Below, one piece after another: positions 5,783 to 38,491 of a stretch of DNA of 64,000 bases; positions within the stretch are counted from its first letter, which is position 1; each line of letters begins with the position of its first letter. The DNA is from Phanerodontia chrysosporium (Eukaryota; Basidiomycota; Agaricomycetes; Polyporales; Phanerochaetaceae). The position numbers and the translations under genes were made by a program. The DNA is taken from NCBI GenBank assembly GCA_001910725.1, contig MJGA01000026.1, positions 1 to 64,000 of the forward strand, written 5' to 3'. The notes beneath the pieces were generated by a model, which saw only the letters and a list, made by a program, of their open reading frames with translations, did not search any database and had not been told where the DNA came from.

Positions 5783-5909
5783 CATGTCCAATTTGAGAGC
5801 ATTGGTCAGTGAGAGCATGACTGTAATAGTGTCATTGCGCACGAGGGAGTACATGTAGAAGAGTGCGAACTTGCCATCTTCAGTTGCAGAGACACACAGC
5901 ATGTCGTCT
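5783..5909 (-). pseudogene. Decayed RecQ/DEAD-type helicase exon, part 2 (left of element B)
   Basis: Continuation of the exon at 13675-13774 after the element B insertion. It reads DDMLCVSATEDGKFALFYMY, then SLVRNDTITV and LTNALKLDM, followed by a GTACGT donor at 5782. The context resembles motif I and motif Ia of RecQ-like helicases found in many copies in agaricomycete genomes (family knowledge). The Walker A core G-x-G-K-S/T is altered: ATEDGKF lacks one glycine and the Ser/Thr, so the protein would not bind ATP normally. Sequence further left is replaced by the solo LTR. Confidence 0.5.
5905..5909 (+). repeat. Target-site duplication of element B, left copy (CGTCT)
   Basis: CGTCT immediately before the 5' LTR; identical to 13675-13679 immediately after the 3' LTR. 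Confidence 0.95.
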
Positions 5910-6440
5910 TGTCATGGCGCTGAAATCCCGAGCCAACTCCGGGTCACGGAGAACGCCGGAGTTCGAGGGAAGCTACGGAGTAGCACGGACATTCGGAGTT
6001 GCGACTCCGGTTGGTTGCTAAGGTCTTATCTTCACCACATGCCTTCATCATCTCGCAAACCTTTACCCCTTCGTTCCTGAGACAAATCCCAGATTGGAAG
6101 TATGATATGTTTTGTACATCTCCGACCATCTCCACGAACTCCGGACTCAGTAGTATATAAGCTCCCGCGCTAGCACTTGTATCCTCAGTTCGGATATCGA
6201 CTTAGGTCCCCTTGTACCCTCTCGACTCTGCTTAATCCTTTCTCGCAATCTCTGTGTGGGCCCGAACCCCGCCACTTCTCCGTATCTCCGACTCTGAAAT
6301 CCAGGCAACGCAGACCGCCGAGGGCGCAGCCCTTTAAGGCTGAAGCCGACTGCCATCCGACCTCCGACCTCCGCCCTTCTCCGACCCTTTCTCCGCTCTG
6401 TTCTCCGTTCTCCGGCCCATCTCCGACCCGCACCTTGACA
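5910..6440 (+). repeat. 5' LTR of element B (531 bp)
   Basis: TGTCATGG...CTTGACA. It differs from the 3' copy only at GAGGGCGCAG versus GAGGGTGCAG and at CTCCGCTCTG versus CTCCGCTCCG. Confidence 0.96.
6154..6160 (+). promoter_or_regulatory. TATA box and predicted RNA start of element B
   Basis: TATATAA; the predicted transcript start is at 6187, 33 bases after its first base, because AGTTCGGATAT at 6187-6197 is the exact complement of the primer site. No ATG occurs between the start and gag at 6469. Confidence 0.7.
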
Positions 6441-6442
6441 GT

Positions 6443-6453
6443 ATATCCGAACT
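6443..6453 (+). other. Self-priming primer-binding site, element B
   Basis: ATATCCGAACT lies two bases after the LTR and is the 11-nt perfect complement of 6187-6197, the predicted RNA 5' end. Pairing stops at both ends exactly after 11 nt. Tf1-type self-priming is inferred. Confidence 0.75.
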
Positions 6454-6468
6454 CACACTCGGCACTGC

Positions 6469-7848
6469 ATGAGCGCCTTCCAGCAGGCGTACGGACACAT
6501 CAACGTCCGGCCGCGACGTTCCACGTCGCAACGATCCGTGTCGCGACGACACACAACTCCAGACGAGGACCGGTTCGAAGAACTAGGTCCAGACGAGGAA
6601 CCCAAGGCTGCAGAGCCGCAGCCGGGAAACCGGGCCTCTGGGGAACCTCCGGTCCCGGAATTCCACATGCCTCGCGAATCCCCGAACAACCCGTTCCAGG
6701 ATTCCGACCGGAGTAGAGAGGGCTCCCAGTCCCGTTCCGGCTCTCGACGTTCGGAGCCACGGAACGAGGAAGCTCCGCAATCGGACATAGTCCGGTTAGC
6801 GGAGGTACTGGAACGATTAACTCGTAAGACGTCCTCCTCTCCTCCGCCCCGCTCTGTGAAGGTCCGGAAGCCCGACCCGTTCGATGGCTCCGACCCACAG
6901 AAGCTCAACACCTTCCTGCTCCAGTGTCAACTGGCCTTCCGGACTGATACCCGGAGTTCCTCCCGGGGTCAGGACAAGGTCAGCTTCGCTCTCTCGTACC
7001 TCAAGGGTACTGCGTTGGACTGGTTCGAACCAGCCATCATGAGGGGCGAAGATCCGGAATGGATTGACGACTGGGACATCTTCGTGGAGGAACTCCAGTC
7101 AAACTTCGGAGTCTTTGACCCGGAGGGCGACGCGGAGTCCAAACTCCAGACGCTAACCATGCGCGACGATAAGCCGTGCGCAAAATACCTTGCTGAATTC
7201 AACAGGTTAGCATCCCGAGTTCAGTGGAGCGAGCCGGCCTTGTGCTTCTTGCTCTACAAGGGCCTTCCAGCCCGGCTCAAGGACAAGATCTCCGAGTCCC
7301 CGTCCGGCAAGCCTAAAACGCTGGCCGGAATGCGGAGAATGATCCAGCTATACGACCGGCGATATTGGGAGCGCCAGGAAGAGATCCGCCGTGAACGGGG
7401 GTCTCAGCCAAAAGCCAGCTCGGCGCAGAACTCCGGCTCTCGGAGTAACAACTCCGGAGGCAGTTCTAACAATGCGTCGAGCAGCGGCAACGGCAACCAG
7501 GCTGCTAAGTCCAGCAGCAACAACAACCAGGCAAAGGGTTCGAACTCCGGGGGCAGGAATGACACTCCGAACCCGAGGGCGAACTCCGCGCCGCGGCCCG
7601 GAAACAACAGCGGCGGCAACAACTCCACCGCTGACAGGGCAAAGGCAATGGGTTTGGACAAGAACGGTAAGCTAACGCCAGAGGAGCGTAAACGCCGTTT
7701 CGAAAACAACTTGTGCATGTTCTGTGCAAAGCCCGGCCACAAGGCCCGGGACTGTACCAACCCCGCCTCTACGGCCTCTCAGGCTAAGGCCCGCTCGGCT
7801 ACGACCACGAGCTCCGCTACTCCGCAGAGCTCGGAGTCAAAAGCCTGA
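6469..7848 (+). CDS. gag: Gag of element B
   Basis: 459 residues from the first ATG of the predicted transcript. The N-terminal third is charged and Ser/Arg/Pro-rich. The capsid domain follows, with KLNTFLLQCQLAFRT, FALSYLKGTALDWFEP and CAKYLAEFNRLASRVQW, typical of Ty3/gypsy chromovirus Gag (retrotrans_gag family). An Asn/Ser/Gly-rich linker of about 90 residues leads to a CCHC knuckle, CMFCAKPGHKARDC, near residue 420. Gag forms the particle and binds RNA. The stop TGA (7846-7848) lies within the pol overlap. No interruption is seen. Confidence 0.95.
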   Translation: MSAFQQAYGHINVRPRRSTSQRSVSRRHTTPDEDRFEELGPDEEPKAAEPQPGNRASGEPPVPEFHMPRESPNNPFQDSDRSREGSQSRSGSRRSEPRNEEAPQSDIVRLAEVLERLTRKTSSSPPPRSVKVRKPDPFDGSDPQKLNTFLLQCQLAFRTDTRSSSRGQDKVSFALSYLKGTALDWFEPAIMRGEDPEWIDDWDIFVEELQSNFGVFDPEGDAESKLQTLTMRDDKPCAKYLAEFNRLASRVQWSEPALCFLLYKGLPARLKDKISESPSGKPKTLAGMRRMIQLYDRRYWERQEEIRRERGSQPKASSAQNSGSRSNNSGGSSNNASSSGNGNQAAKSSSNNNQAKGSNSGGRNDTPNPRANSAPRPGNNSGGNNSTADRAKAMGLDKNGKLTPEERKRRFENNLCMFCAKPGHKARDCTNPASTASQAKARSATTTSSATPQSSESKA

Positions 7849-10800
7849 GCAACTCTCGTGACTCCGCACGGGCCGAGAGTTGCGTTGAATCTTCCCGTGC
7901 ATCCGAGGAGCTCCGTCTCAACGCGTCCGCTCTTTTTCCGTTGCATTCCTTCTATGTTCCGCTAACCGCACCCCCCGACCTTTCTCTCCTTGCGCTGCTA
8001 GACAGTGGCTCCTCACATTGTTTCATTGATTTCGATTTTGCCAAACGGCACCATCTCCGGCTCAAGTCCGTTCCTCCGCTTCCGCTCCGTCTTTTCGATG
8101 GATCTCTTGCAGGGACCATCTCCTTCTCCGTTGATCTTCCGGTCACTTTTCCGACCGGGAACACCCTGGATTTGTCTTTCTACGTCACTAAACTCGACTC
8201 TCCGTCGACTGCAGTCTTAGGTCTCAACTGGCTATCCGCCTTCAATCCGTCGATTGACTGGGCAGCCCGTACCATCACCTTTCCGCCTGCAGTCTCTCCC
8301 GTACCCCCGTCTCCGGCTGATAAGGCCACATCTCCGGAGAAAACCCCCACTTCCGACGAGTCTTCCGATCCCACTCCTCCTGAACTCCGCTCCGCTCCTC
8401 TCGTTTCCCTCATCGGAGCAGCCGCATTCGCGCGAGCCTCGCAGTTGCCCGGCTCCGAAGTATTCCACTTCCGTCTGCGCGCCGTCTCCGACTCCGCTAC
8501 TCCCGCTCCGACACCCCCGCTCGACCTATCCAATGTTCCCCCAGAGTACCACGACTTCGCCGACGTCTTCAGCGAGGAACGTGCCTACACTCTACCCCCT
8601 CACCGACCTTACGACCTCAAAATCGAGTTGGAAGATGAAAAGCCCCTAACTCCGGGGCGTCTCTACTCCCTATCTCCGGCTGAACTCCAGGCTCTCCGCG
8701 AGTTCATCGACAAGAATCTCTCCGCAGGATTCATCCGTCAGTCCGCCTCTCCGCACGGAGCTCCGATCCTCTTCGTCAAGAAGAAGGACGGGAGTTTACG
8801 CCTCTGTGTGGATTTCCGCGCGCTGAATCGCATCACCAAGAAAGATCACTACCCCCTCCCACTCATCTCCGATCTCCTGAACGCTCCGGGGAAAGCCCGT
8901 ATCTACACCAAGATAGATCTCCGCCATGCGTACCATCTGGTCCGCATCGCGGAGGGCGACGAGTGGAAAACCACATTCCGCACGCGCTACGGCTCTTTCG
9001 AGTGGTTGGTTATCCCTGAGGGTCTTACTAATGCTCCTGCCGCTTTCCAGAGATTCATGAACGACGTTTTCCGCGACCTGCTCGATGAATGTGTTATCGT
9101 CTACCTCGACGATATCCTCATCTACTCCGATTCTCCGGAGGAGCACCGGAAACACGTCCGCGAAGTTCTCCGTAGACTCCGCGAGCATGGCCTCTACGCC
9201 AAGGCTCCAAAGTGTCAGTTCCACACTGACTCGGTGGAGTACCTCGGATACATCTTGTCCCCCTCCGGACTTTCGATGTCCGAGGACAAGGTCAAGATTA
9301 TTCTTGACTGGCCTACTCCGCGGAAGGTCAAGGACATCCAGTCCTTCCTAGGGTTTGCAAATTTCTATCGACGTTTCATTCCTTTCTATTCCGATATCGT
9401 TGTTCCGCTAACCCGTCTCACCCGGAAGAATACTCCGTGGAAGTGGACTCCGCAGTGTCAGGAGGCGTTCGATACCTTGAAAAAGGCTTTCACGTCCGCT
9501 CCGACACTGGCGCAGTGGAAGCCCGGAGCTCCGTTGATTGTGGAGACCGATGCGTCCGACTATGCACTAGCGGCCATCCTATCCATGGTCACGGACGACG
9601 GCGTTCATCCGCTTGCGTTCCACTCCCGGACGTTCTCCGCTCCGGAGTTGAACTACGACGTTCACGACAAGGAGTTGCTAGCCATCTTCGCGGCATTCCG
9701 CATCTGGCGGCACTACCTCGAAGGCTCCTCTACCCCCATAGACGTCATCACCGACCACAAGAACCTGGAGTATTTCTCCACGACGAAACTCCTGACCCGG
9801 AGACAAGCCCGGTGGTCGGAGTTTCTGAACTCCTTCAACATGGTCATCCGCTTCCGTCCCGGCCGTCTGGGCACCAAGCCCGATGCGCTCACTCGACGAT
9901 GGGACGTCTACCTTAAAGAGGGAGGTAACGGCTACGCCAACGTCAATCCGCACAACTATAAGCCGATCTTCACCTCCGAGCATCTCGCTGCATCCCTCCG
10001 AGCGACCATCCTCGCAGCTCCGGTTCTCCGGGCTGTGGTCACTATGGACGTGGAAACACTGCACGACGATATTCGTAAGGCTTTGGCTACGGATTCCCTT
10101 GCTTCTTCTATCCTTTCCCAATCTCCGCTTCCTCCGCGCTGGTCCGCTGATAATACAGGTTTACTTCTTCTCGATAATCGCATCTACGTCCCCGACATTC
10201 CCGAACTCCGGCTCCGAGTTCTCCGTTACAAGCACGACCACCCCCTCGCGGGTCACTACGGCTTTAACAAGACTCTCGAGCTCCTCCGACGCGAGTATAC
10301 GTGGCCCGGTGTTCGTGGGTTTGTCAAGGACTACTGCCAGTCTTGCACGACTTGCAGGAGATCCAAGGCACCCCGGCACAAGCCATACGGAACTCTGCAG
10401 CAACTCCCGATCCCGGAGAAGCCATGGAACTCCATCTCCATGGACTTCATCGAGCATCTTCCGAAGTCCTTCGGATTCTCCGCTATCCTGGTGGTGGTGG
10501 ATCGTCTCACAAAGCAGGCAATCTTCATCCCCACTCACGACGAGATTGATGCTCCGGGACTAGCTAAGTTGTTCATCCTCCATGTTTTCTCCAAGCACGG
10601 AGTTCCCTCGCACGTCACCTCCGACCGAGGTTCCGAATTTGTCTCTCAGTTTTTCCGCTCTCTGGCACTGGCTCTGGACATCGAGCTCCACTACACCTCC
10701 GGGTATCATCCCGAGGCAGATGGGCAGACAGAGCGTACTAACCAGACTCTCGAGCAGTATCTCCGGATGTACTGCAATTACCAGCAGGACAACTGGTCGG

Positions 10801-11528
10801 AGTTACTCCCACTCACGGAGTTTGCGTACAACAATGCCCCGAGCGCAACAACGGGCATTTCTCCGTTCTTCGCTAACAAGGGTTATCACCCGAATCTCAC
10901 AGTGCACCCCGAGCGTGACATCGCGTCCGCTCGCGCTCGCGACTTCGCCGTCGATCTCCACGAGCTCCAATCGGAGCTCCGGACACAGATCGCGGAAGCT
11001 CAGAAGCGCTACCAAGGACCTGCCGATGCCCGGAGATCACCTCCGCCTGACCTCCAGGTCGGAGACATGGTCTTCGTCAAGGCTAAGCACTTCCGGACTA
11101 CCCGTCCATCTCCGAAGCTTGCGGAGAAAATGCTTGGCCCTTACAAGGTCATAGCAAAGGTTGGCCCGCAGTCCTACACACTGCAGCTACCCCGCGAGTT
11201 CCGCACCGTACACCCCGTGTACCACATATCCATGTTAGAACCTCACCTTTCTAGTTCTATTCCAGGTCGGACTACATCTCCGCCACCTCCGGTCGAAATC
11301 GACGGAGACCTCGAATACGAAATCTCCGAGATCGTAGACTCCAAGATCGACAAACGTCGGAGATGCCCCCTCCTCTACAAGGTCCGCTGGTTAGGATATG
11401 AAAACACCGACGAAGAGTTCGAATGGATTCCGGCAAGCGAGCTAGAGCATGCTCAGGAACACATTGCGGACTTCCATCTCCGGTACCCCGAAAAACCCGG
11501 TCCACTCTCGGACTCCGTACCCCGATGA
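7788..11528 (+). CDS. pol: Pol of element B (protease-RT-RNase H-integrase-chromodomain)
   Basis: The frame opens at 7788 after a TAA, overlaps gag by about 60 bp in the -1 frame, and runs to 11528. It has no ATG near its beginning, so a gag-pol fusion is expected. In order: protease LLDSGSSHCF; RT with FVKKKDGSLRLCVDFR and IVYLDDILIYS; RNase H VETDASDYALAAIL; the integrase zinc finger with paired His then CQSCTTC; the integrase core with SMDFIEHLP, TSDRGSEF and HPEADGQTERTNQ giving the D-D-E triad; and a C-terminal chromodomain EYEISEIVDSKI...KVRWLGYENTDEEFEWIP. The chromodomain is thought to direct integration to chromatin with particular histone marks. All catalytic residues looked for are present. 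The overlap lacks a classic slippery heptamer. Confidence 0.96.
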   Translation, partial: GPLGYDHELRYSAELGVKSLSNSRDSARAESCVESSRASEELRLNASALFPLHSFYVPLTAPPDLSLLALLDSGSSHCFIDFDFAKRHHLRLKSVPPLPLRLFDGSLAGTISFSVDLPVTFPTGNTLDLSFYVTKLDSPSTAVLGLNWLSAFNPSIDWAARTITFPPAVSPVPPSPADKATSPEKTPTSDESSDPTPPELRSAPLVSLIGAAAFARASQLPGSEVFHFRLRAVSDSATPAPTPPLDLSNVPPEYHDFADVFSEERAYTLPPHRPYDLKIELEDEKPLTPGRLYSLSPAELQALREFIDKNLSAGFIRQSASPHGAPILFVKKKDGSLRLCVDFRALNRITKKDHYPLPLISDLLNAPGKARIYTKIDLRHAYHLVRIAEGDEWKTTFRTRYGSFEWLVIPEGLTNAPAAFQRFMNDVFRDLLDECVIVYLDDILIYSDSPEEHRKHVREVLRRLREHGLYAKAPKCQFHTDSVEYLGYILSPSGLSMSEDKVKIILDWPTPRKVKDIQSFLGFANFYRRFIPFYSDIVVPLTRLTRKNTPWKWTPQCQEAFDTLKKAFTSAPTLAQWKPGAPLIVETDASDYALAAILSMVTDDGVHPLAFHSRTFSAPELNYDVHDKELLAIFAAFRIWRHYLEGSSTPIDVITDHKNLEYFSTTKLLTRRQARWSEFLNSFNMVIRFRPGRLGTKPDALTRRWDVYLKEGGNGYANVNPHNYKPIFTSEHLAASLRATILAAPVLRAVVTMDVETLHDDIRKALATDSLASSILSQSPLPPRWSADNTGLLLLDNRIYVPDIPELRLRVLRYKHDHPLAGHYGFNKTLELLRREYTWPGVRGFVKDYCQSCTTCRRSKAPRHKPYGTLQQLPIPEKPWNSISMDFIEHLPKSFGFSAILVVVDRLTKQAIFIPTHDEIDAPGLAKLFILHVFSKHGVPSHVTSDRGSEFVSQFFRSLALALDIELHYTSGYHPEADGQTERTNQTLEQYLRMYCNYQQDNWSELLPLTEFAYNNAPSATTGISPFFANKGYHPNLTVHPERDIASARARDFAVDLHELQSELRTQIAEAQKRYQGPADARRSPPPDLQVGDMVFVKAKHFRTTRPSPKLAEKMLGPYKVIAKVGPQSYTLQLPREFRTVHPVYHISMLEPHLSSSIPGRTTSPPPPVEIDGDLEYEISEIVDSKIDKRRRCPLLYKVRWLGYENTDEEFEWIPASELEHAQEHIADFHLRYPEKPGPLSDSVPR

Positions 11529-11776
11529 TACCCTTCCGTTTCTCTCTCCATTTCTCTCTCTCTCTCTCGCCCTGAACCAACATCAAAAAAAAAAAAACCA
11601 AACAAAGTCTCTCTCCGATTTCTCCGATTTCTCCGATTTCTCCGTCTCCGAACTCCGTCTCTAATTCCGGTTTCTCGTATCCGTTCACTCTCACTCTCAC
11701 TCACACAAGAATTCCCCGAAAAACATCACATAGTATTAAAAAAGAAAAAACATAAGATAAAACAAAACCAAAAACC
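11529..11776 (+). other. Region between pol and antisense gene, element B
   Basis: Non-coding stretch with an A13 run near 11585-11597, then a tandem TTTCTCCGA-type repeat at about 11612-11645 and CT-rich sequence. It is the probable 3' untranslated region for the antisense transcript as well as sense internal sequence. Confidence 0.45.
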
Positions 11777-12936
11777 CTACTCCTTCCTCGCCTTCTTCCG
11801 CGCCGGACTTTTCTCCGCCTCCTCCTCCTCCGACGACTCCGAGCTCTCCTCCTCACCCTCCGTCTCCTGCGCCTCCGCCAAAGGTCCTCCTTCTTCTTCT
11901 TCTTCTTCGTCTCCTTCTCCGTCTTCTTCTCCGCTCTGCTCCGCCTCCGCCCGCTCCAACTCCGCCTTCATCGACCCCACGCGGACGGCCCACTTCTTGA
12001 CCTCGTAGGGCCACCGCGCCTGATCCGCCTTGATCAGGCCCAGCTCCCTCCGCACCGCCTCCACCTGCTCCGCCGGCACCTCCACCTCCGGCTCCGGCGC
12101 CGGACCGAGACCCTGCATCCGGACCAGGGCGTCGTCAAAGTCCGGGTCGGCGAGGCCCGCGTACAGCGTGTCCGCCAACACCCCCATGGTGTAGGCGAAC
12201 TTTGCGAATTCGCGCCGGGTCTTGTCGCCCTGGCGCTTGACCTCTGCCGTGAGGTCGTCCACCGCCTCCGTTAGGAGGCCCAGGGCCTCCGCGATCGCCC
12301 CCGCGGCCGTCGCCACCTCCGACTCCGCTCCGGCCTCGGAGTCCGCGACCTCCTCCGCCGTCACCGGGGCCTTGCCCTTCCCCTTCTCCGCGGCCTTCTT
12401 CCGCGGCGCGGCTCCGCTCACGGAGACGCCACCCTTCGTGCACGGCCGCTTGGCGACCGCACACGGCTGGCAGGCTTTCGCCCGCCCCCCAACCCGCCAC
12501 TCGCACTCCAGGCCCAACTTGCGACAAGAGTCGCAAGGGGCCTGCTTAGCGGCCTCCGCCTCCGCGTGCCTCCGGGCCTCCGCCTCCGCGGACCCCTCCG
12601 CCACCTCCGGCCGCTTCCTCTTCGCGGCCGACGCGGACCCGCTCGCCTCCTTCTCCTCCCGCTGCTTCCGCAGCTCCGCCGCCCGCCTCCGCTTCTCCGC
12701 CTCCGCCGCCTTCCGCTTCTCCTCCTCCGCCGCCTTCAGCCTCTCCTCCTCCGCCTTCCGCTTCGCCTCCTCGCGCCGCCGCTCGATCTCGCGCCGTCTG
12801 CGCGCCGCCTCCTCGAGGGCCTTCTTGGCCTCCTCCTCGGCCTTCCGGATTTCTGCGAACTCCGTTAGTCTCGAACTCCGGAAGAGGAAACTCCGGGGTA
12901 CTTACCCTGCTCGAGTCGTTCGTCTTCGGAAGACAT
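11777..12936 (-). CDS. Antisense accessory gene of element B: spliced Zn2Cys6-cluster protein
   Basis: Encoded opposite to gag-pol. Exon 1 is 12936-12906 (ATG, ten codons plus one base). The intron 12905-12853 is 53 nt with a GTAAGT donor, a CTAAC branch-like site and a CAG acceptor. Exon 2 is 12852-11777. The phase-1 join is exactly in frame and gives about 368 residues. The N-terminal 100 residues are a charged Glu/Lys/Arg/Ala heptad-like helix, followed by a basic KRKR motif. The cluster starts CDSCRKLGLEC and continues to CQPCAVAKRPC, spacing C-X2-C-X6-C-X10-C-X2-C-X6-C, the exact pattern of fungal Zn(II)2Cys6 DNA-binding domains. The C-terminus is very acidic with a final basic KKARKE. 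A nuclear DNA-binding regulator is the natural inference; a role in the element cycle is unproven. An antisense long ORF could also arise by chance in GC-rich DNA, but the intron and zinc cluster argue against it. Confidence 0.75.
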
Positions 12937-13130
12937 GGTGGTTCTGAGGAACCCCAGCCAGAATCCGCGAGCCTAAAATACCCGAAATCCGTACCCCGGG
13001 CACCCCTTCCGCAACCCCGGATACCCGATCAATTTTCATCCGCTGGGGAGCGCCGCATTCCGTTGGGGCACGAAAAAATACGAAAGTCGTACGATGTCGC
13101 GAATTCGCTTGGCCTCGAAGGTCTCGGCCT

Positions 13131-13140
13131 AAGAGGGAGG
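13131..13140 (+). other. Polypurine tract of element B
   Basis: AAGAGGGAGG lies three bases before the 3' LTR, the expected place for plus-strand priming. Confidence 0.7.
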
Positions 13141-13143
13141 TAC

Positions 13144-13674
13144 TGTCATGGCGCTGAAATCCCGAGCCAACTCCGGGTCACGGAGAACGCCGGAGTTCGA
13201 GGGAAGCTACGGAGTAGCACGGACATTCGGAGTTGCGACTCCGGTTGGTTGCTAAGGTCTTATCTTCACCACATGCCTTCATCATCTCGCAAACCTTTAC
13301 CCCTTCGTTCCTGAGACAAATCCCAGATTGGAAGTATGATATGTTTTGTACATCTCCGACCATCTCCACGAACTCCGGACTCAGTAGTATATAAGCTCCC
13401 GCGCTAGCACTTGTATCCTCAGTTCGGATATCGACTTAGGTCCCCTTGTACCCTCTCGACTCTGCTTAATCCTTTCTCGCAATCTCTGTGTGGGCCCGAA
13501 CCCCGCCACTTCTCCGTATCTCCGACTCTGAAATCCAGGCAACGCAGACCGCCGAGGGTGCAGCCCTTTAAGGCTGAAGCCGACTGCCATCCGACCTCCG
13601 ACCTCCGCCCTTCTCCGACCCTTTCTCCGCTCCGTTCTCCGTTCTCCGGCCCATCTCCGACCCGCACCTTGACA
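13144..13674 (+). repeat. 3' LTR of element B (531 bp)
   Basis: Begins TGTCATGG, ends CTTGACA; about 99.6% identical by eye to the 5' copy, indicating recent insertion. Confidence 0.96.
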
Positions 13675-13679
13675 CGTCT
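13675..13679 (+). repeat. Target-site duplication of element B, right copy (CGTCT)
   Basis: Identical to 5905-5909. Confidence 0.95.
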
Positions 13680-27450: not shown

Positions 27451-30400
27451 TCAAGCCTTTGCGAGTCCGAGGGACGAAGCGAAGTGCTTGGCCTTCATCG
27501 AAGGGAGCGCTTTTGTGAGCGTGTCGGCCACCATATCCTCTGTAGGACAGTAGGTAACGGTGATATTGCCGTGCTCGATGTGGTACCGAATGAAATGGTA
27601 CCGGATGTCGATGTGCTTCGACCGAGCGTGGTAGCGATCGTCGCGCGCGAGGGCGATGGCGCTCTGGTTGTTCGAATAGAGCTGCGTCGGCTGGAGGGGC
27701 ATTTGCCAGACTTCGTGCAGGTAATTGCGCAGCCAGAGGGCCTCCTTCGCGGCGTGCGTGAGCGCGACGTATTTGGCTTCGCTCGTCGAGAGCGCGACGA
27801 TTTCCTGACGCTTGGATGACCAGGAGACAGCGCCGCCGATGAGGAACGCGTAGCCCGAGACGGCTTGACGTCCTTCGGTGGACATGCCGTCCGCATCGGT
27901 GTAGCCGACGAGAGGTCCGTCGCGCGCGTCGCCGCCGAGAACGAGTGAGAGGTCGCGCGTGCCCTTGAGATACGCGTAAACGCGGCGCAGCGCGTTCCAG
28001 TGCTTCATGCCAGGGTTCTCGGCGAAGCGAGCGAGCTGATTGACAGCGTAGGCGATGTCTGGGCGTGTGGCGACGGCGGCATACATGAGCGCACCGAGAG
28101 CTTGACGGTAAGGCTTGTGGCGCATCTCGGCGACTTCGGCAGCGGTCGAGGGGCAGTCCTCCTTCGAGAGAACGAGGTGCGGGTCCATCGGCGCAGCAAG
28201 CGGCTTGATGTCTTCGAAGCCGTAGCGGCTGATGATCTGGTCGAAGTAGGCCCGTTGCGAGAAGGAGACCGTTCGCTTTGCGCGATCGCGTTTGATTTCG
28301 ATGCCGAGGAGCCAGTTGAGCGGCTGCAGTGGCGTGGCTTCGACGCGTGCGCGAATGCGTCTGTCGATGTCCTCGATCGTCTTCTGGTCGGGCGCGATGA
28401 GCGTGAGGTCGTCGACGTGAGAGGAGATGATGGCGACGTGGTTCCCGGGCAGGTGGCGGTAGAACACGGCGTGGTCTTGCTCGGAGCGCGTGAGACCGAT
28501 GTCGGCGATGATTTCGCGCAGGAAAAGTGCCCAGCGACGGCCGGCTTGCTTAAGGCCGTAGAGCGCGACGCGAAGGCGAAGGACTTGACCAGTCTTGAGT
28601 CCCTGCAGCTTGACACCGGGGGGCGGGCGCAGGTAGATGACTTCGTCGTCCTTGAGCGGTCCGTAGAGGAAGGCGGACTTGATGTCGATCTGGGCCATCT
28701 CGTAGTCGCGTTGGGCAGCGAGAGCTGCGTTTGCGCGTTGAGACGCCATTTTTGCGACGGGCGCGAACGTGTCGTCCGAGAAGAAGTCGACGCCGTCGAT
28801 TTGAGTGAAGCCTTGGCCGACGAGTCGCGCGCGATAGCCGGTAATCGCGTTCTGCGCGTCGCGTTTCGTGCGGTAGACCCATTTCGAGCCAACGACGTGC
28901 GCGCCACTCGGGGCGGTTTCGTAGACCCATGCGCGGTGCTGCTCGAGGCGGCGGATTTCTTCGTCCATTGCCTCTTGCCAGGCAGGTGCGTCCGGGCTGC
29001 GCATGGCTTCAGCGTAGCTTCTAGGGTCGTGCCCGAGTGCTTCTGATTGCGCGGCTTCGAGGGTGGCTTCGAGTTCGCTGTGCGAGAGGTCGAGGATGTG
29101 GGCGGCTAGGCGCTTCTGGGCTAGGCGCGCTGAGCGGCGCGGTGTGGCGGGAGGCTCGTCGTCCGGGGGATCGCTCGGGAAGGTGTCAGAAGCGTCGGAG
29201 GCAGCGTCGGGGTGCTGCTCGTTGTCGCTGTCAGAGTCTGGAGCCGGATCGAGGCTGTAATCCTCCCCCTCAAGGAGCGGCACCTCGCGCGACGAGAACT
29301 TGATGTCCCGCTCGACCGAGACTTTGTGTGAGGTCGGCCAATAAATCTGAGACCCGTTCGACGTAGGGTCGAAGCCCAGCCAACGGCATTCGACTGCGCG
29401 CGCATCGAGCTTCCCAGCAGAGAGGTTTCGGACGAAGCAGACAGCGCCGAAGGGCTTGAGGCCAGAGAGATCAGGAGGGGAGCCGAAACGAACCTCGTAT
29501 GGCGTACGGAAGTCGATGGCGGCGTGCGGTGTGCGGTTGTACAGCCAGACAGCGTGGCGAACAGCTTCGCCCCAGAGCGTGCGCGGTAGCCCAGACGAGA
29601 TGAGAAGTGCGCGCACCATATTGAAGATAGTGCCGTGAACGCGCTTGGCGACACCGTTGTGCTCAGGCGTGTCGTGGACGGTGAGGCGGCGAACGACGCC
29701 GTTGCGCGAGAGGAACTCAGAGAATTCGTGGCTGGTGAACTCACCGCCGCGATCCGAGGAGACGACTTTCAGCTGGGCGCCGGATTGGGTGCGGATCAGC
29801 GCCACAAAGTCGCGGAACCTCGCGAAGGCTTCGTCCTTCGAGCGAAGCAGCGGTTCTTCGAGCCAGCGCGAGTGGTCGTCGACCATGACGAGAGCGTAGC
29901 GGCAGTGATTTATGGTGCGCACGGGCGCAGGGCCCCAGACGTCGAGGTGCAGGTGCTCTCCGAAGGTAGCGGCGAGAGGGGAGGAGCGCTTCGCGGCGAT
30001 CGGGGCGCGCGCAGCCTTTGCGCGCATACAGACAGAGCATTCGTCCTCGGTACGCCGAGCAGGATCGAGCTGGAGGCCCTGGATCGCCTTGGAGGCAACG
30101 AGCTTTTTGATGTAGCCGTAGGAAAGATGCCCAAGGTGCTGGTGCAGCTGGTACAGCGAGAGCGAGGCCGAAAAGGCGGCGAGAGCGAGACCTTCGCCCG
30201 AGTGGTAGTAGCGATAGAGCCCGCGAATTTTGGGGATTGCAGCGAACTGCGCGTCGCCGCGCATGATGCGCAGGTAGCCACCGCCGATAACGGCGCGGTA
30301 GCCGGCGTCGTCGAATTTTCCCAGAGAGACGAGGGTGGCGGCCATCGATTCAGCGAAGTACACGTCGCGAAGAGTGATGCGCGTCCAGCTATCGCCGTTG

Positions 30401-31021
30401 GGCATGAGAAGCTTCATGTCCCTGACACCGGTGGCGGCGAAGTGAGACTTCCCGGCGGCGCGCACGGTGCGAGCGGGGATGGGGCGATAGTTGTACAGCA
30501 GATGGCGGAACGGCGTCATATGGTGTGTGGCGCCAGAGTCGTAGATGTCGACAGGGTCGGTAGACTGGCTGACCAAGGCTTCATCGACGGTATCTTCGCG
30601 TTCGGGTGGCGCATCGGACTCAGGTGCGAGCGCAGAGGCGGCCCAGGCGTCCTCGACTTCGACGATCTTAGCGGCGGGCGCAGGCGCAGGCGCAGGCGCA
30701 GACGCGGGCGCGGGCGCGGACGTGACTTGCGCGGCGTTCGCAGCGGGCTCAGGACGCTTCGCATAGTTCTTAGATGGGCAAACTTTCTTGGTATGTCCCT
30801 TCCCTTGACACTTGTAGCAGGTAACCTCCTCCCCCTCACGGGAGGACTGGTTAGCAGAGTTGCCACCGCGCTGCTGCTGTTGCGCGGAGCGGCCCTTCCC
30901 CTTGCCGCGCCCTCCACGCTGGCCGCGAGCATCCGCGCTCGCAGCGGTGGGCACGGCGTCCTTAGCGCCACCTCGAGCGACAGTGTATCGAGAGTGCGCC
31001 TCGGCGCGCAGCAACGGGATC
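27451..31021 (-). CDS. gag-pol: Copia Gag-Pol, C-terminal part (nucleocapsid-protease-integrase-RT-RNase H)
   Basis: Downstream part of the element C ORF, cut at its N-terminal side by element D. In order: CCHC knuckle CYKCQGKGHTKKVC; protease IYDSGATHHM; the integrase zinc region HLGHLSYGYI...CSVCMRAK and core with LHLDVWGPAP, SSDRGGEF and HNGVAKRVHGT; RT with IDIKSAFLYGPL and SSHVDDLTLI (HVDD in place of the usual YVDD); RNase H with GYTDADG, STSEAKYVAL and YSNNQSAIAL; ending SSLGLAKA. Integrase before RT is the copia order. About 1,190 residues are present here and roughly 1,511 would exist in the uninterrupted ORF. No stop or frameshift is seen. Confidence 0.93.
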
Positions 31022-31026
31022 AGTTC
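31022..31026 (+). repeat. Target-site duplication of element D, left copy (AGTTC)
   Basis: AGTTC before the 5' LTR; repeated at 39127-39131. Confidence 0.95.
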
Positions 31027-31626
31027 TGTCACAGTTTTTCGTCTCAACCCTTAGGGTTAGGGGCAGCAGGTGACAGAAGCGGTTACTCCGAACTGTGACA
31101 TGCAGAAGCGCTGGAGTGACAGCCCTAGGCTCGGGGCTGGTCACGTGATACGGCGGTCACGTGATGCGCACACGTGCGGTATCCCAGGGTCACATGGTCG
31201 AAGGTCTAGAAGCAGGCAAGGGTCTGGAAGCGCCGAGACACTCCGGAATGGACTAGAAAGCCCTGGAGGTCTCTGGACAGGTCCGGACAGTGCTGGAACG
31301 TTCTGGAGGTTTCTGGGACATCGTAGGAACATTTAGGAACGTGTAGGAGAATGTAGGAATGCCTGTAGGGCACTAGCCAATAGCGTAGTAGGTATTAGAT
31401 AGCTAGGACCCTGAACACCGGTCCCTGGGGACCTGGTGCACATGTATATAAACCCTGAGGGCTGGGGGTGCCTCCCCAGCTTCAATCTCATCGCATCTCA
31501 CCTCTCTAGTCTCTATACCTCGTCTTCAAGCTTGGCTACACCCTTTGTAGTCCAAGTAAACCTTTGCCAGTGAGTATTGCTGGTTGGTTTGGTGTATAGG
31601 CGCTAGGGCAGCGCATTTTTGTGATA
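31027..31626 (+). repeat. 5' LTR of element D (600 bp)
   Basis: TGTCACAG...TTGTGATA; ends TG...TA. It contains TTAGGGTTAGGG at 31051-31062, three CACGTG palindromes at 31142, 31158 and 31171, and a TATA box at 31445. Confidence 0.95.
31445..31452 (+). promoter_or_regulatory. TATA box and predicted RNA start of element D
   Basis: TATATAAA; the predicted RNA start is 31478, 33 bases after its first base, marked by the sequence complementary to the primer site (AGCTTCAATCT, 31478-31488). Confidence 0.7.
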
Positions 31627-34358: not shown

Positions 34359-37300
34359 AGTCTGCGACATCTGGTCCGTTTTTAGATTTCCTTTACCCTC
34401 CCGACTCAGTAGAATGTATTAGATCAGTTTTGGAATCGAGAAAAGTCTCTAGTTTACCCTCTAAATCGAGCTTTATCGTTCCAGTAACTTTGAGTCAGGG
34501 TAAGGAAATCAGAGTGCAGACTACCGCGCTGGTTGATTCAGGGGCCTATGCTGTGTTCATTAGCCATCGCTTCGTCAAGAAGCATAAGCTGAAGACGAAC
34601 CAGCTGGCCAGGGAGATACGCGTTTACAACGCAGATGGCTCCAGGAACAAGTGTGGCAGTATTGAGGAGTACGCTTGGCTCGACGTAGCCGTAGGGGACC
34701 ATGTCTCCAGACAAGCATGCCTCATTACAGATCTGGGTGGAAAGGACATGTTCCTCGGCTTTAGCTACTTGAAGAAGCATAATCCCGAGATAGATTGGGA
34801 TAAGGGCGAGTGGAAGTACTCCAGATGCCCAGATTCTTGTCGCTTTACCAGCCACAAGGCTCAAGTAGCGCAAGCAGAGCTCGAAGAACCTATGGATGAG
34901 GACTTCGAGGAGGAAGAAGAGGAGCCTTGGCTCCAGTGGGTCGACCCTTCCACCCCAGATGGCCGCGTTTTGGCATTAACTTGCCGGAAGATCGCAGCGA
35001 TGTGCAGTATTCGTTCGCTGGAGGGAATCGAGGGCTGGGAGCAGCTTGTCCCTGCACAGTATCAAGACTATGGGGACGTGTTTTCGAAGCGTGCAAGCGA
35101 ACGGTTACCCGTACGAAAGCCTTACGACCACGCTGTCGAGTTTATCGACGGAGCTACCCTACCTCGACCAGCTCGTAATTACTCGCTGTCGCCAGAAGAG
35201 AGGAATTCTCTGGACGAGTGGATTCAGGAGAATCTCGCCAAGGGATACATCAGACCAAGTAAATCCCCGCTGGCAGCACCAGTCTTTTTCGTGAAGAAGA
35301 AGGACGGTTCATTGCGCTTGGTGCAGGACTACAGAAAGCTGAACGAAGTCGTTAAGAAAGACCGCTTCCCTATACCCAAGATCTCAGACCTTATAGATCG
35401 ACTATCTAAGGCTAGTATATACACCAAGATTGACCTTAGATGGGGGTATAACAACGTCAGAATCAAGGAAGGAGACGAGTGGAAGCTGGCCTTCATCACA
35501 CCTTTCGGTTTATACGAACCTACAGTGATGTTCTTCGGCCTCAGCAATGCACCAGCAACCTTTCAGCGCATGATGAACCATATTCTCGACGATCTGATTC
35601 GAGAAGGGCATGTCATGGTCTACCTAGACGACATTCTCATCTTCACGAATGACTTGGACCACCATCGGCGATTAGTTCGCGAGGTATTGCAGCGGCTACG
35701 CGACAATGACCTGTTCGCTAAGCCAGAAAAATGCTTCTTCGAGACGGATAGCATTGAATACCTCGGAATGATCATCAGCAAGGGGTCGGTTCAGATGGAT
35801 CCATCGAAGGTAGATGGCGTTTTATCTTGGCCCATACCCAAAAGGGTCAAAGATGTCCAGGCTTTCCTGGGTTTTGCTAACTTCTACCGACGGTTTATTC
35901 GAGACTTTGGCAAGATTGTTCGCCCATTGTCAGAGCTTACCCGCAAAGGCAAAGAGTGGGAATGGGGGCCTGAGCAGCAGGATGCCTTCGATACACTCAA
36001 AAGAGCGTTCACTACTGCGCCTATTCTCAAGATTCCAGACGACGAGCACCCTTTTAGGCTCGAATGCGATTCGTCAGACTTTGCTACGGGGGCTGTACTT
36101 GAGCAACTGGGCGAGGATGGCCTTTGGCACCCTGTCGCGTTTTACTCCAAGGCGCTAGGCGTACATGAGCGCAACTACGAGATATACGACAAGGAGATGC
36201 TAGCCATCATCCGCGCATTGAAGGAATGGCGCCACCACTTGGAGGGACACCCTCTACCATTCGACATATGGTCAGATCACCAGAATTTGACCTATTTCCG
36301 CAAGGCGCAAGACTTGACGCGACGCCAAGCACGTTGGAGTCTTTTCCTCACACGTTTCCACTTCAAGTTGGAGCACAAGCCTGGAAAGACGATGAAGCGG
36401 GCTGATCCAATGTCCAGGAGGCCAGATCATGAATTGGGGGTGGATTGCGACAATCGTGAAAAAGTCCTTTTGAAGCCAGAATATTTCGCGATTCGAGCCA
36501 TGCAACCAACCCATTCATCGATAGTGGACGATAGCAAACTGCTAGAAAGGATCAGAAAAGCCCTGCTGGACGACGAAGTCACCAAGTCGTACAAAGACCT
36601 GATGTTGAAAGGACCAAGAGAGTTCGGGAAGGACTTAGCGGAATGGCACCTCGAGGACGGGCTACTACTGCACCGAGGCAAGGTGTATGTGCCCAAGGAC
36701 GACGAGATTAGGGCGGATCTACTCAAGTTACACCACGACTTCCCTGGGGCTGGACACCCTGGACGATGGAAGACGTTGGAGTTGCTGTCGCGCAACTACT
36801 GGTGGCCAGGAATGTCGGTTTACGTCAAGAAGTACGTCGCAGGTTGCGAAGTTTGCCAGTCGCATAAAAACGTCAACCAGAAGCCTGCTGGCCTGCTACA
36901 ACCGAACGAGGTTCCGTCGGAACCCTGGGAGATAATCTCATGCGATATGATCACGGACTTGCCTGAGTCGGACGGTTACAACGCTATCTTCGTAGTCGTT
37001 TGCCGCTTAACCAAGCGAGCACATTTCCTCCCCATCACCAAGGAGTTTTCAGCCAAGGATCTGGGAAATTTGCTCTATGAGCGTGTTTGGCCTTTGCACG
37101 GCCTACCCAGACAGATCATTTCGGATAGAGGAACGCAGTTCGCCGCGAAACTCTTCCAGGAATGGTGCAGACTCCTGGGGATCAAGTCAGCAATGACTAC
37201 AGCGTTTCACCCTCAGGCAGACGGTCAGACCGAGCGAGTTAATCAGTCATTGGAGCAATATCTGCGCTGCTACACAAGCTTCAGGCAGGACGACTGGGCG

Positions 37301-38491
37301 TACCTTTTGCCCTCTGCCGAGTTTGCGTACAACAACCAGGCGCATGAAAGCACCAAGAACTCGCCATTCTTCGTCGAATATGGCCGTCATCCACGCATGT
37401 TCCCAGAGCAGGACCGTGTTACAAGGTTGTCAGAACTGGACGACTGGACGAAGCTTAGACAGGAGGCCCAAGATCAGGCGAAAGCCGCGCTCGTGCTGGC
37501 TGCAGAGCGAATGAAGTGGTACTACGACCAGGGTAAATCAGAACCCTTGTTCAAGGTCGGAGACCGTGTTTGGCTTGACGCAAAGGATCTGAACCTTCGG
37601 GTTCCCTCCAAGAAACTGGCACCAAAGCGAGTAGGCCCTTACGAGATCGTAGAGCAGCTGGGACCGGTCACCTTCAAGCTGAAGTTACCAGCCCATGTGA
37701 AGATTCACCCGGTCTTCCACGCAAGCAAGCTCACGAAGCACGTCGAGGATGAGGTTGCCAATCGCACGCGCAAACCCCTACCACCCATTCGTGTGGGTGA
37801 TGACGAGGAGTACGAGGTCGAGCAGATCGTAGATGCACAGCCAGACTCTAAAGGCCGTGTTATGTACCGAGTACGGTGGAGAGGCTACGATGAGCATAGC
37901 GACACATGGGAATACTTGCCCAATCTCAAGCACGCTATGGCGAAGGTCAAACAATTCCACAGGAAATACCCAGATGCGCCGAAGGCAATTTCCCTTCTGC
38001 AACGCCACCACGACGAGGAGGATGAGTTTTTCGTGCGCGAACTCGCGCTACTCCAATCTTGGGGAGCAGACGACCAGTTCGAGGTCGAGCTCATGAACAA
38101 GGACGCAAAACTCCCCTCACGTGGCTCGCCAGAAAGTGCAGGGTTGGATCTTTTCATCACGGAAGACCTTACGCTCAAGCCCCATGATCGCAAGCTAGCG
38201 TCAACGGGCCTTCGAATGTGTACTCCACCAGGTACCTACGCTCGAGTCGCACCACGGAGTGGCCTCAGCCTCAGAGGCATCGACATAGGAGCAGGCGTTA
38301 TTGACCGAGATTATCGAGGGGAGCTCAAAATTCTACTCATCAACAACTCGCCCGACACCTTTACTTTCCACAAGGGTGATCGTGTCGCTCAACTCGTGCT
38401 CGAAAGAATCTCCTACGCCGAACCAACTCCGGTTTCTCGCCTCGACTCAACCATTCGCAGCAGCGATGGTTTTGGCTCCACTGGTATTTAG
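34334..38491 (+). CDS. pol: Pol of element D (protease-RT-RNase H-integrase-chromodomain-dUTPase)
   Basis: Read in the -1 frame from gag. In order: protease LVDSGAYAVFISH; RT with FVKKKDGSLRLVQDYRKLN and MVYLDDILIFT; RNase H LECDSSDFATGAVL; integrase zinc region HHDFPGAGHPGRWK...CEVC; integrase core SCDMITDLPES, ISDRGTQF, FHPQADGQTERVNQ; chromodomain EYEVEQIVDAQPD...RVRWRGYDEHSDTWEYLP (about 37805-37975). The last 137 residues (from about 38078) are a full trimeric-type dUTPase with all five motifs: SAGLDLF, APRSGLS, GAGVIDRDYRGE, KGDRVAQLVLERI and RSSDGFGSTG. dUTPase splits dUTP to dUMP and so prevents uracil entering cDNA during reverse transcription. All catalytic motifs look intact. A dUTPase behind a chromodomain is unusual; in known retroviruses it sits in pol or in pro. 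Confidence 0.95.
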   Translation, partial: GFSAGTDVESATSGPFLDFLYPPDSVECIRSVLESRKVSSLPSKSSFIVPVTLSQGKEIRVQTTALVDSGAYAVFISHRFVKKHKLKTNQLAREIRVYNADGSRNKCGSIEEYAWLDVAVGDHVSRQACLITDLGGKDMFLGFSYLKKHNPEIDWDKGEWKYSRCPDSCRFTSHKAQVAQAELEEPMDEDFEEEEEEPWLQWVDPSTPDGRVLALTCRKIAAMCSIRSLEGIEGWEQLVPAQYQDYGDVFSKRASERLPVRKPYDHAVEFIDGATLPRPARNYSLSPEERNSLDEWIQENLAKGYIRPSKSPLAAPVFFVKKKDGSLRLVQDYRKLNEVVKKDRFPIPKISDLIDRLSKASIYTKIDLRWGYNNVRIKEGDEWKLAFITPFGLYEPTVMFFGLSNAPATFQRMMNHILDDLIREGHVMVYLDDILIFTNDLDHHRRLVREVLQRLRDNDLFAKPEKCFFETDSIEYLGMIISKGSVQMDPSKVDGVLSWPIPKRVKDVQAFLGFANFYRRFIRDFGKIVRPLSELTRKGKEWEWGPEQQDAFDTLKRAFTTAPILKIPDDEHPFRLECDSSDFATGAVLEQLGEDGLWHPVAFYSKALGVHERNYEIYDKEMLAIIRALKEWRHHLEGHPLPFDIWSDHQNLTYFRKAQDLTRRQARWSLFLTRFHFKLEHKPGKTMKRADPMSRRPDHELGVDCDNREKVLLKPEYFAIRAMQPTHSSIVDDSKLLERIRKALLDDEVTKSYKDLMLKGPREFGKDLAEWHLEDGLLLHRGKVYVPKDDEIRADLLKLHHDFPGAGHPGRWKTLELLSRNYWWPGMSVYVKKYVAGCEVCQSHKNVNQKPAGLLQPNEVPSEPWEIISCDMITDLPESDGYNAIFVVVCRLTKRAHFLPITKEFSAKDLGNLLYERVWPLHGLPRQIISDRGTQFAAKLFQEWCRLLGIKSAMTTAFHPQADGQTERVNQSLEQYLRCYTSFRQDDWAYLLPSAEFAYNNQAHESTKNSPFFVEYGRHPRMFPEQDRVTRLSELDDWTKLRQEAQDQAKAALVLAAERMKWYYDQGKSEPLFKVGDRVWLDAKDLNLRVPSKKLAPKRVGPYEIVEQLGPVTFKLKLPAHVKIHPVFHASKLTKHVEDEVANRTRKPLPPIRVGDDEEYEVEQIVDAQPDSKGRVMYRVRWRGYDEHSDTWEYLPNLKHAMAKVKQFHRKYPDAPKAISLLQRHHDEEDEFFVRELALLQSWGADDQFEVELMNKDAKLPSRGSPESAGLDLFITEDLTLKPHDRKLASTGLRMCTPPGTYARVAPRSGLSLRGIDIGAGVIDRDYRGELKILLINNSPDTFTFHKGDRVAQLVLERISYAEPTPVSRLDSTIRSSDGFGSTGI

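Follow-up and report, generated by a model that had tools for sequence, protein, structure and literature searches.

Antisense accessory genes are already known from plant LTR elements and from human T-cell leukaemia virus (HTLV-1), and self-specific anti-silencing is known from a plant transposon. The viral product, HBZ, is a bZIP protein, and the plant transposons, VANDALs, are DNA transposons. In plant LTR elements of the Retand lineage (Grande, RIRE2 and Silene Retand), antisense TRP28 open reading frames (ORFs) lie between pol and the 3′ LTR; as described, such an ORF occurs in nearly all of the recently active elements studied, and its product is predicted to bind DNA and suspected to be a regulator (PMC11963269). 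HBZ is encoded by a spliced antisense gene at the 3′ LTR end of HTLV-1 and regulates transcription (PMC1459196). VANDALs of Arabidopsis encode an anti-silencing protein, VANC, and a fast-evolving short motif has accumulated in the element (PMC5735166) (PMC10398659). LTR elements of bdelloids possess ORF3s that are shared among retroelement types (PMC5408684).

The window analysed here, the first 64,000 nucleotides of contig MJGA01000026.1 of Phanerodontia chrysosporium, contains a chromovirus that resembles the Retand elements in having an antisense ORF in the interval between pol and the 3′ LTR. The Retand elements are described as plant, non-chromovirus elements with a TRP28 domain and with family-specific tandem repeats in the 3′ interval, whereas the fungal element is a chromovirus with a zinc-cluster-like domain, and its 5-bp motif, CTCCG/CGGAG, is dispersed through coding sequence. 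The fungal antisense gene has an intron; the word 'intron' is absent from the main text of the Retand paper (PMC11963269). HBZ, in the account cited above, is alternatively spliced and translated mostly from a first exon in the LTR. In contrast, the fungal ATG is 207 bp inward of the LTR edge, the element has an element-wide array of sites, and the protein looks unrelated to HBZ. VANDAL motifs are reported as tandem repeats in noncoding regions, whereas the fungal motif is scattered and lies within codons of gag and pol. As far as these sources go, VANC can serve as a functional model for the fungal antisense gene, and HBZ and the Retand TRP28 ORFs as positional models. The bdelloid ORF3s are alike in that an accessory gene family is found in different kinds of repeat within a single genome; the types given for them (DEDDy, GDSL, env, CC and TM) are unlike the fungal gene, and 'antisense' in the main text of that paper concerns small RNAs only (PMC5408684). 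No fungal chromovirus with an antisense zinc-cluster gene was recognised in the literature, as judged by titles and the beginnings of abstracts, and neither 'antisense' nor 'zinc' occurs in the main text of PMC3248453.

Organisation and age of the element

The element at 5910–13674 of the window is a complete chromovirus 7765 bp in length, with the following features.

5905–5909 (no strand): target-site duplication CGTCT, left copy
5910–6440 (+): 5′ LTR, 531 bp, 17 CTCCG/CGGAG motifs
5910–13674 (no strand): dispersed array of 183 CTCCG/CGGAG motifs over the whole element
6469–7848 (+): gag; Retrotrans_gag, E = 1.4e-12; the CCHC knuckle scores under the cut-off
7941–11528 (+): pol; protease, RT, RNase H, integrase and chromodomain
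13144–13674 (+): 3′ LTR, two mismatches against the 5′ LTR
13675–13679 (no strand): target-site duplication CGTCT, right copy

The domain order, gag followed by PR-RT-RNaseH-IN with a C-terminal chromodomain, is that of a chromovirus (Ty3/gypsy, Metaviridae). A search of the genome with pol found at least 12 family members with an identity of at least 93%. Both LTRs are present in ten family elements, where the LTR pairs have 0–6 mismatches of about 531; nine of these elements have perfect 5-bp target-site duplications, and the exception, L015, has a duplication with one mismatch. The chromovirus is young and active-looking, with a third, antisense gene.

A second chromovirus is located at 34430–38491 (+) of the window, and its Pol ends in a dUTPase domain (PF00692, E = 7e-38). 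Many of the other chromovirus pol matches listed resemble this one in identity and open-frame length. A C-terminal dUTPase has been described in a Postia element (PMC2864245).

The antisense gene, its splicing and its upstream region

The antisense gene occupies the minus strand (12936–11777) of the interval that separates pol from the 3′ LTR, and its predicted product has 368 aa.

12974–12980 (−): TATTTTA box, 38–44 nt upstream of the ATG
12937–13143 (−): 3′ LTR-to-ATG region, putative promoter and leader
12906–12936 (−): exon 1, 31 nt, ATG at 12936, phase-1 junction
12853–12905 (−): intron, 53 nt, GTAAGT...CTAAC...CAG
11777–12852 (−): exon 2 with stop, 2 nt + 357 codons + stop
12650–12850 (−): predicted long helix, probably a coiled coil, N-terminal to the zinc cluster
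12440–12535 (−): six-cysteine Zn2Cys6-like cluster, residues 117–148

A minus-strand gene with an in-frame intron had been proposed in the preliminary description, and this model is confirmed. The donor GTAAGT is at 12905, CTAAC at 12868 and the CAG end at 12853; when 17 AG acceptors were tried, only the 53-nt intron gave the long product, and the remaining acceptors gave at most 114 aa. The '359-codon exon' given there is essentially right, as the length of exon 2 listed above indicates. The intron is present in 11 of 11 family copies, in several versions of 52 or 53 nt, and is the more variable part, with 22 of 53 columns varying over the 11 copies (41%) vs 154 of 1076 (14%) in exon 2. Splicing of the gene thus has strong comparative support. 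The earlier claim that the gene is carried through transposition with its intron is borne out by these copies; keeping of the intron would be expected if reverse-transcribed sense RNA cannot splice an antisense intron. The opposite strand of the gene carries a 241-aa ORF at 12222–12947.

The 207 bp upstream of the antisense ATG contain no CTCCG/CGGAG motif in 11 of 11 copies and in L021, a short relative described below, and one motif in L022, a sister chromovirus. The longest motif-free gap of the element (280 bp, 12891–13171) spans the area just upstream of the ATG. The TATTTTA box is unchanged in the 11 copies, and both the box and the GTYCCTCAGAACCA leader are conserved to L022. We infer that a separate promoter just inside the 3′ LTR serves the antisense gene.

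Conservation and selection in the family copies

A protein search of the genome with the antisense gene gave at least 34 matches, ten of which, besides the window's own, are full length and 86–99% identical. The preliminary description would have doubted the gene if related elements lacked the ORF or most copies had stops. Of the listed family copies, 11 retain the full 3′ end of pol. Every one of these has the gene, with an open spliced frame in ten and a single stop, at codon 60, in L018; a twelfth listed copy is truncated and has no antisense gene. The lists of gene matches and pol matches, which were compared by eye, are lower bounds. Among the matches listed, none to the antisense gene lies within 5 kb of the other 97 chromovirus matches (36–41% identical). 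The locus thus shares with HBZ and the Retand genes an antisense ORF in the pol–3′ LTR interval, conserved across active copies.

Gap lengths in exon 2 are 3, 3, 6, 12, 18, 21, 24, 45 and 45, all nine being multiples of 3; the same is true of four of 19 gap runs in the interval between pol and the gene. Pooled pN/pS of the antisense gene is 0.30 when nine close copies are compared and 0.42 in comparisons with L018 and L019; that of the end of pol (340 codons) is 0.075. When the six frames of exon 2 are compared, the gene frame has the lowest pN/pS and no stops in ten of 11 copies, whereas the other five are all interrupted by stops, in some copies or in all of them, and give higher pN/pS values. 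The antisense gene is therefore under constraint, though faster-evolving than pol. dS between gene copies reaches about 0.23; since the insertions are young, the differences would have built up over repeated rounds of retrotransposition, during which the frame was kept. On these comparisons, the antisense gene is a real accessory gene of the element family.

The antisense protein

The spacing of a Zn(II)2Cys6 cluster ranges over CX2CX6CX5-12CX2CX6-8C. The cluster of the antisense protein has the spacing CX2CX6CX10CX2CX6C, within this range, and all six cysteines are invariant in five of five subgroup sequences. The cluster is the most constrained part of the protein between copies L009 and L019, with a pN/pS of 0.16 based on only two synonymous changes and one nonsynonymous change. 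The Zn(II)2Cys6 assignment made earlier stands as regards this spacing; it does not stand as regards the Pfam Zn_clus profile, which gave no match at E up to 1, or 9.7 bits vs a cut-off of 21. The antisense gene is not among the 29 Zn_clus matches in the genome. None of the five family sequences has a K or R directly before Cys3 or a loop proline before Cys4, whereas the canonical zinc clusters of the same genome have both a basic residue before Cys3 and the loop proline (seven of seven examined, from the 29). The cluster is, judging by these residues, atypical and not a textbook Zn2Cys6.

In GAL4, a basic pair contacts CGG. This pair is not conserved in the antisense protein, which has LG at these positions (in RKLGLE), so reading of CGG by the antisense protein cannot be assumed. 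Typical targets of fungal Zn2Cys6 proteins are described as pairs of CGG triplets (PMC5559640). The antisense protein resembles fungal Zn(II)2Cys6 transcription factors (PF00172) in the six-cysteine spacing, with a weak similarity of profile and perhaps of fold; unlike them, it has the cluster in mid-protein, behind a long helix, and lacks the basic residue, the loop proline and an above-threshold Pfam score. The product is predicted to be a Zn2Cys6-like nuclear protein, probably a coiled coil, with one acidic and one basic tail.

A scan of the 275-aa C-terminal frame gave no Pfam match at E up to 1, the TRP28 domain (PF04195) included. No homologues were found among 7995 candidates scored in a first protein search, where low-complexity words probably swamped the search and the absence is uninformative, or among 7994 scored with alignment A1, a search probably swamped in the same way. 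The Zn core region gave none among 34 candidates, an absence that is likewise uninformative, the protein library being apparently poor in fungi. A scan of IMG/VR with A1 gave seven pattern matches, none of which was confirmed. The comparative claims made here rest on one fungal genome.

Diverged relatives in the same genome

A first exon of 31 or 34 nt is common to most of the diverged relatives in the genome, and their shared layout comprises a short exon 1, a phase-1 intron, a charged helix-like stretch, a six-cysteine cluster and a basic C-terminus. In the sister chromovirus L022, pol is 87% identical over 91 aa (tblastn, next to the gene copy); this locus is missing among the listed matches of the pol search. 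Its exon 1 has 34 nt (read by eye) and its frame is broken later. L021 (contig C85, about 64440–66880) packs into about 2.4 kb one LTR, an antisense gene lacking the zinc cluster and the beginning of a second LTR; no match to pol lies between the LTR and this second one. It has a 34-nt exon 1 and an open spliced frame of 311 aa, and is an apparent non-autonomous derivative. The left part of L021 recurs in contig C63 with 99% identity.

Groups B and C of the relatives are embedded in larger repeated units, and each has a candidate first exon that is exactly 31 nt long; pol of this family has no match in their 10-kb loci. Group D has kept the six cysteines, and no exon 1 of the 31- or 34-nt type was found in it. 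The similar layout and first exon of the diverged relatives suggest that the intron is probably older than the gene's residence in this chromovirus.

Four loci, L042, L043, L041 and L044 (contigs C85, C63, C47 and C41), share a large repeated unit in which as many as three Zn2Cys6-like genes occur, assigned to groups B, C and D by their spacing among the genome matches. It also contains a zinc-less relative and three long ORFs (352–416 aa) without any Pfam match, and is possibly an undescribed giant mobile element. An RT-bearing ORF at L039:2–1981 (+) (RVT_1, E = 6e-7; 13 genome matches) belongs to what we take to be a Penelope-like element. It was considered as the carrier of the group B gene and rejected, as few of the 13 matches are near (about 5 kb on C114 and C51, about 18 kb on C63). 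As regards a subtelomeric position of groups B–D, TTAGGG arrays are absent from the eight loci examined.

Excess of the CTCCG/CGGAG motif

The preliminary description remarked on a CTCCG-rich LTR. This lead proved important: the motif is enriched over the whole element, beyond the LTR as well as in it, and CTCCG/CGGAG is its top over-represented 5-mer, with 183 occurrences in 7765 bp vs 39.7 expected from dinucleotides, and a density of 23.6/kb vs 2.35/kb in the rest of the window. In a 300-bp profile, the rise and fall of the motif coincide with the element edges. In pol, 77 motifs compare with 28.0 ± 4.4 under synonymous shuffles (rank 1 of 511 5-mers), and each of the six strand-by-phase classes is higher than in any of 500 shuffles. 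Enrichment holds for either orientation: it is 2.7- and 3.1-fold in pol and 2.2- and 3.0-fold in gag, and none of 1000 shuffles reached any of the observed counts. The antisense gene has an excess in one orientation only (gene-strand CGGAG 35 vs 19.6, CTCCG 2 vs 1.3), and its motif richness is partly due to the coding of Ala and Glu; in the LTR, the minor orientation merely equals the shuffle maximum (4 vs 4). On the sense strand of the element, CTCCG is 3.6 times commoner than CGGAG (143 vs 40). Spacing between motifs is not fixed, and their flanks show little consensus. 6-mers suggest CGGAG followed by A.

The other elements compared lack this excess. A homologous pol segment has 24 motifs here (7.0 ± 2.2 under synonymous shuffling) vs one or two in each of nine control segments, which represent three other chromovirus families at 70% identity (six from the family of the second chromovirus, two and one). 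The truncated twelfth family copy has 15 motifs in 822 bp. The second chromovirus of the window has four motifs vs 6.5 ± 2.4, about one SD low, and is thus without motif excess, with no clear avoidance. A copia element (window 27451–31047, −) has four vs 17.7 ± 3.5 in synonymous shuffles, a marked avoidance. Eight host loci match the dinucleotide expectation (80 vs 87.8), and the rest of the window falls short of it (104 vs 163). Genome-wide, clusters of three CTCCG at short spacing number 765 vs 903 for a reversed-pattern control, so CTCCG clusters alone are not rare in the genome. Among the matches listed, 41 of 46 clusters on contig C13 fall within a 7.8-kb copy of the element. As with VANC, a short motif is over-represented in the element encoding the factor; unlike the VANDAL motifs, it is dispersed over coding and noncoding sequence and is not in noncoding tandem repeats. 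Gene and motif excess are found together only within a single clade, made up of the family, its sister L022 and, more weakly, L021; these are not independent cases.

Gain and loss of motifs between copies

Motif gains and losses were compared with a null in which the same substitutions were relocated within region, base and codon position (2000 simulations). From L019 to L009, the aligned part has 210 substitutions, with 20 motif gains vs 4.8 in the null (none of 2000 simulations as high) and six losses vs 19.5 (none of 2000 as low). Without the gene, ten gains compare with 1.5 (0/2000) and five losses with 10.6 (16/2000). Among 20 5-mers of the same composition (300 simulations each), gains exceed the null for CTCCG and its overlapping shift TCCGC only. 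Substitutions in the L019-to-L009 direction preferentially create the motif. The reverse direction is weaker, with seven gains vs 3.2 (77/2000) and 20 losses vs 24.7 (218/2000); outside the gene, gains are in excess (five vs 1.0, 5/2000). Polarised roughly by L022 as an outgroup (76.5% identical), the changes comprise 16 gains and five losses on the L009 side and four of each on the L019 side. In L073, an LTR of the gene-bearing sister, there are 12 motifs and four gains (null 0.8, 7/1000).

Slower evolution of existing sites was not seen in the LTR, where motif columns change at 0.093 vs 0.077, and in pol they are faster from the L009 side (4/55 vs 12/437). The LTRs of relatives L067–L072 (85–89% identical) have 3–9 motifs vs 17, with loss that is neutral or faster; no antisense-gene match lies alongside them among the matches listed. 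The CTCCG/CGGAG sites look to have been gained by selection, judging by the aligned copies.

Possible function of the antisense protein

Given a gene with its splicing logic and purifying selection, and a motif both in excess and gained with a bias, the most likely job of the antisense protein would be recognition of the element's own DNA. In the proposed mechanism, an antisense transcript would be driven by a promoter in the stretch separating the 3′ LTR from the ATG, and its spliced mRNA would encode a nuclear, probably oligomeric protein. Weak binding to single sites, multiplied by oligomerisation, would mark the element, with about 24 sites/kb, against a background of about 2 sites/kb. The outcome would be sequence-specific control of the element's own chromatin or transcription, with relief of silencing ranked above transcriptional tuning and this above target immunity; a motif-free antisense promoter would keep the factor expressed. 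The antisense protein would accordingly bind the motif, act in the nucleus and counteract silencing. The explanation as a whole, a protein that recognises its element's own site array for VANC-like control, is put forward tentatively, with a chance close to even. A bolder form would be that the whole element, including gag and pol codons, has been rewritten into a continuous binding array for its own antisense-encoded protein, with only that gene's promoter left site-free, as a density-based self-recognition device for anti-silencing or target immunity; we consider this possible, and somewhat doubtful.

The alternative that survives best, though unlikely, is that a host protein (an activator, a remodeller or a histone-modifying factor) reads the CTCCG array, or that the array serves in some other capacity at the DNA level (target immunity is one), and that the antisense protein acts elsewhere, for example, on host genes. 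The loss of GAL4-type contact residues and the single, unspaced 5-mers would suit such a reader. However, the nine segments from three other chromovirus families of this host lack the excess and the copia element is far under its synonymous expectation (4 vs 17.7), so a general host factor would need to be exploited by this lineage alone; avoidance of the antisense gene's own upstream region by the motifs also argues against it.

Rather improbable is an HBZ-like role, in which sense transcription from the LTR is repressed or adjusted by the antisense product, whether protein or RNA, or the antisense RNA pairs with genomic RNA as dsRNA, the array being unneeded. The place and orientation of the gene are as in HTLV-1 HBZ as described (PMC1459196), and overlap would be unavoidable if both transcripts were made, since the antisense unit lies inside the expected sense transcript. 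Purifying selection, however, acts at the protein level, and an RNA-only role would neither keep the frame nor confine gaps to multiples of 3; moreover, 183 motifs through gag and pol would be unexplained. We give still less weight to a motif acting in RNA, for instance with CUCCG scattered through genomic RNA as a signal for packaging or translation. The sense-strand bias towards CTCCG noted above fits this idea, but in gag and pol the bias is mostly codon content, and both orientations are similarly enriched over synonymous shuffles.

A host gene transduced by chance and kept merely through the youth of the copies would be consistent with near-identical LTR pairs; it is very improbable, being contradicted by the dS, the pN/pS of 0.30–0.42, the several intron versions and the nine in-frame gap lengths. 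An artefact of GC-rich open frames, to which the 241-aa ORF on the opposite strand might point, has hardly any probability in view of the stops and higher pN/pS in the other five frames of exon 2.

Significance

With recognition of the element's own DNA as the preferred reading, what is new is one fungal element that combines an antisense, intron-bearing, zinc-cluster-like gene with evidence from aligned copies of selection for a 5-bp motif in coding and noncoding sequence. How a transposon distinguishes its DNA from that of the host becomes a directly testable question, and a motif excess beyond synonymous expectation would provide a sequence-only signature for similar systems elsewhere.
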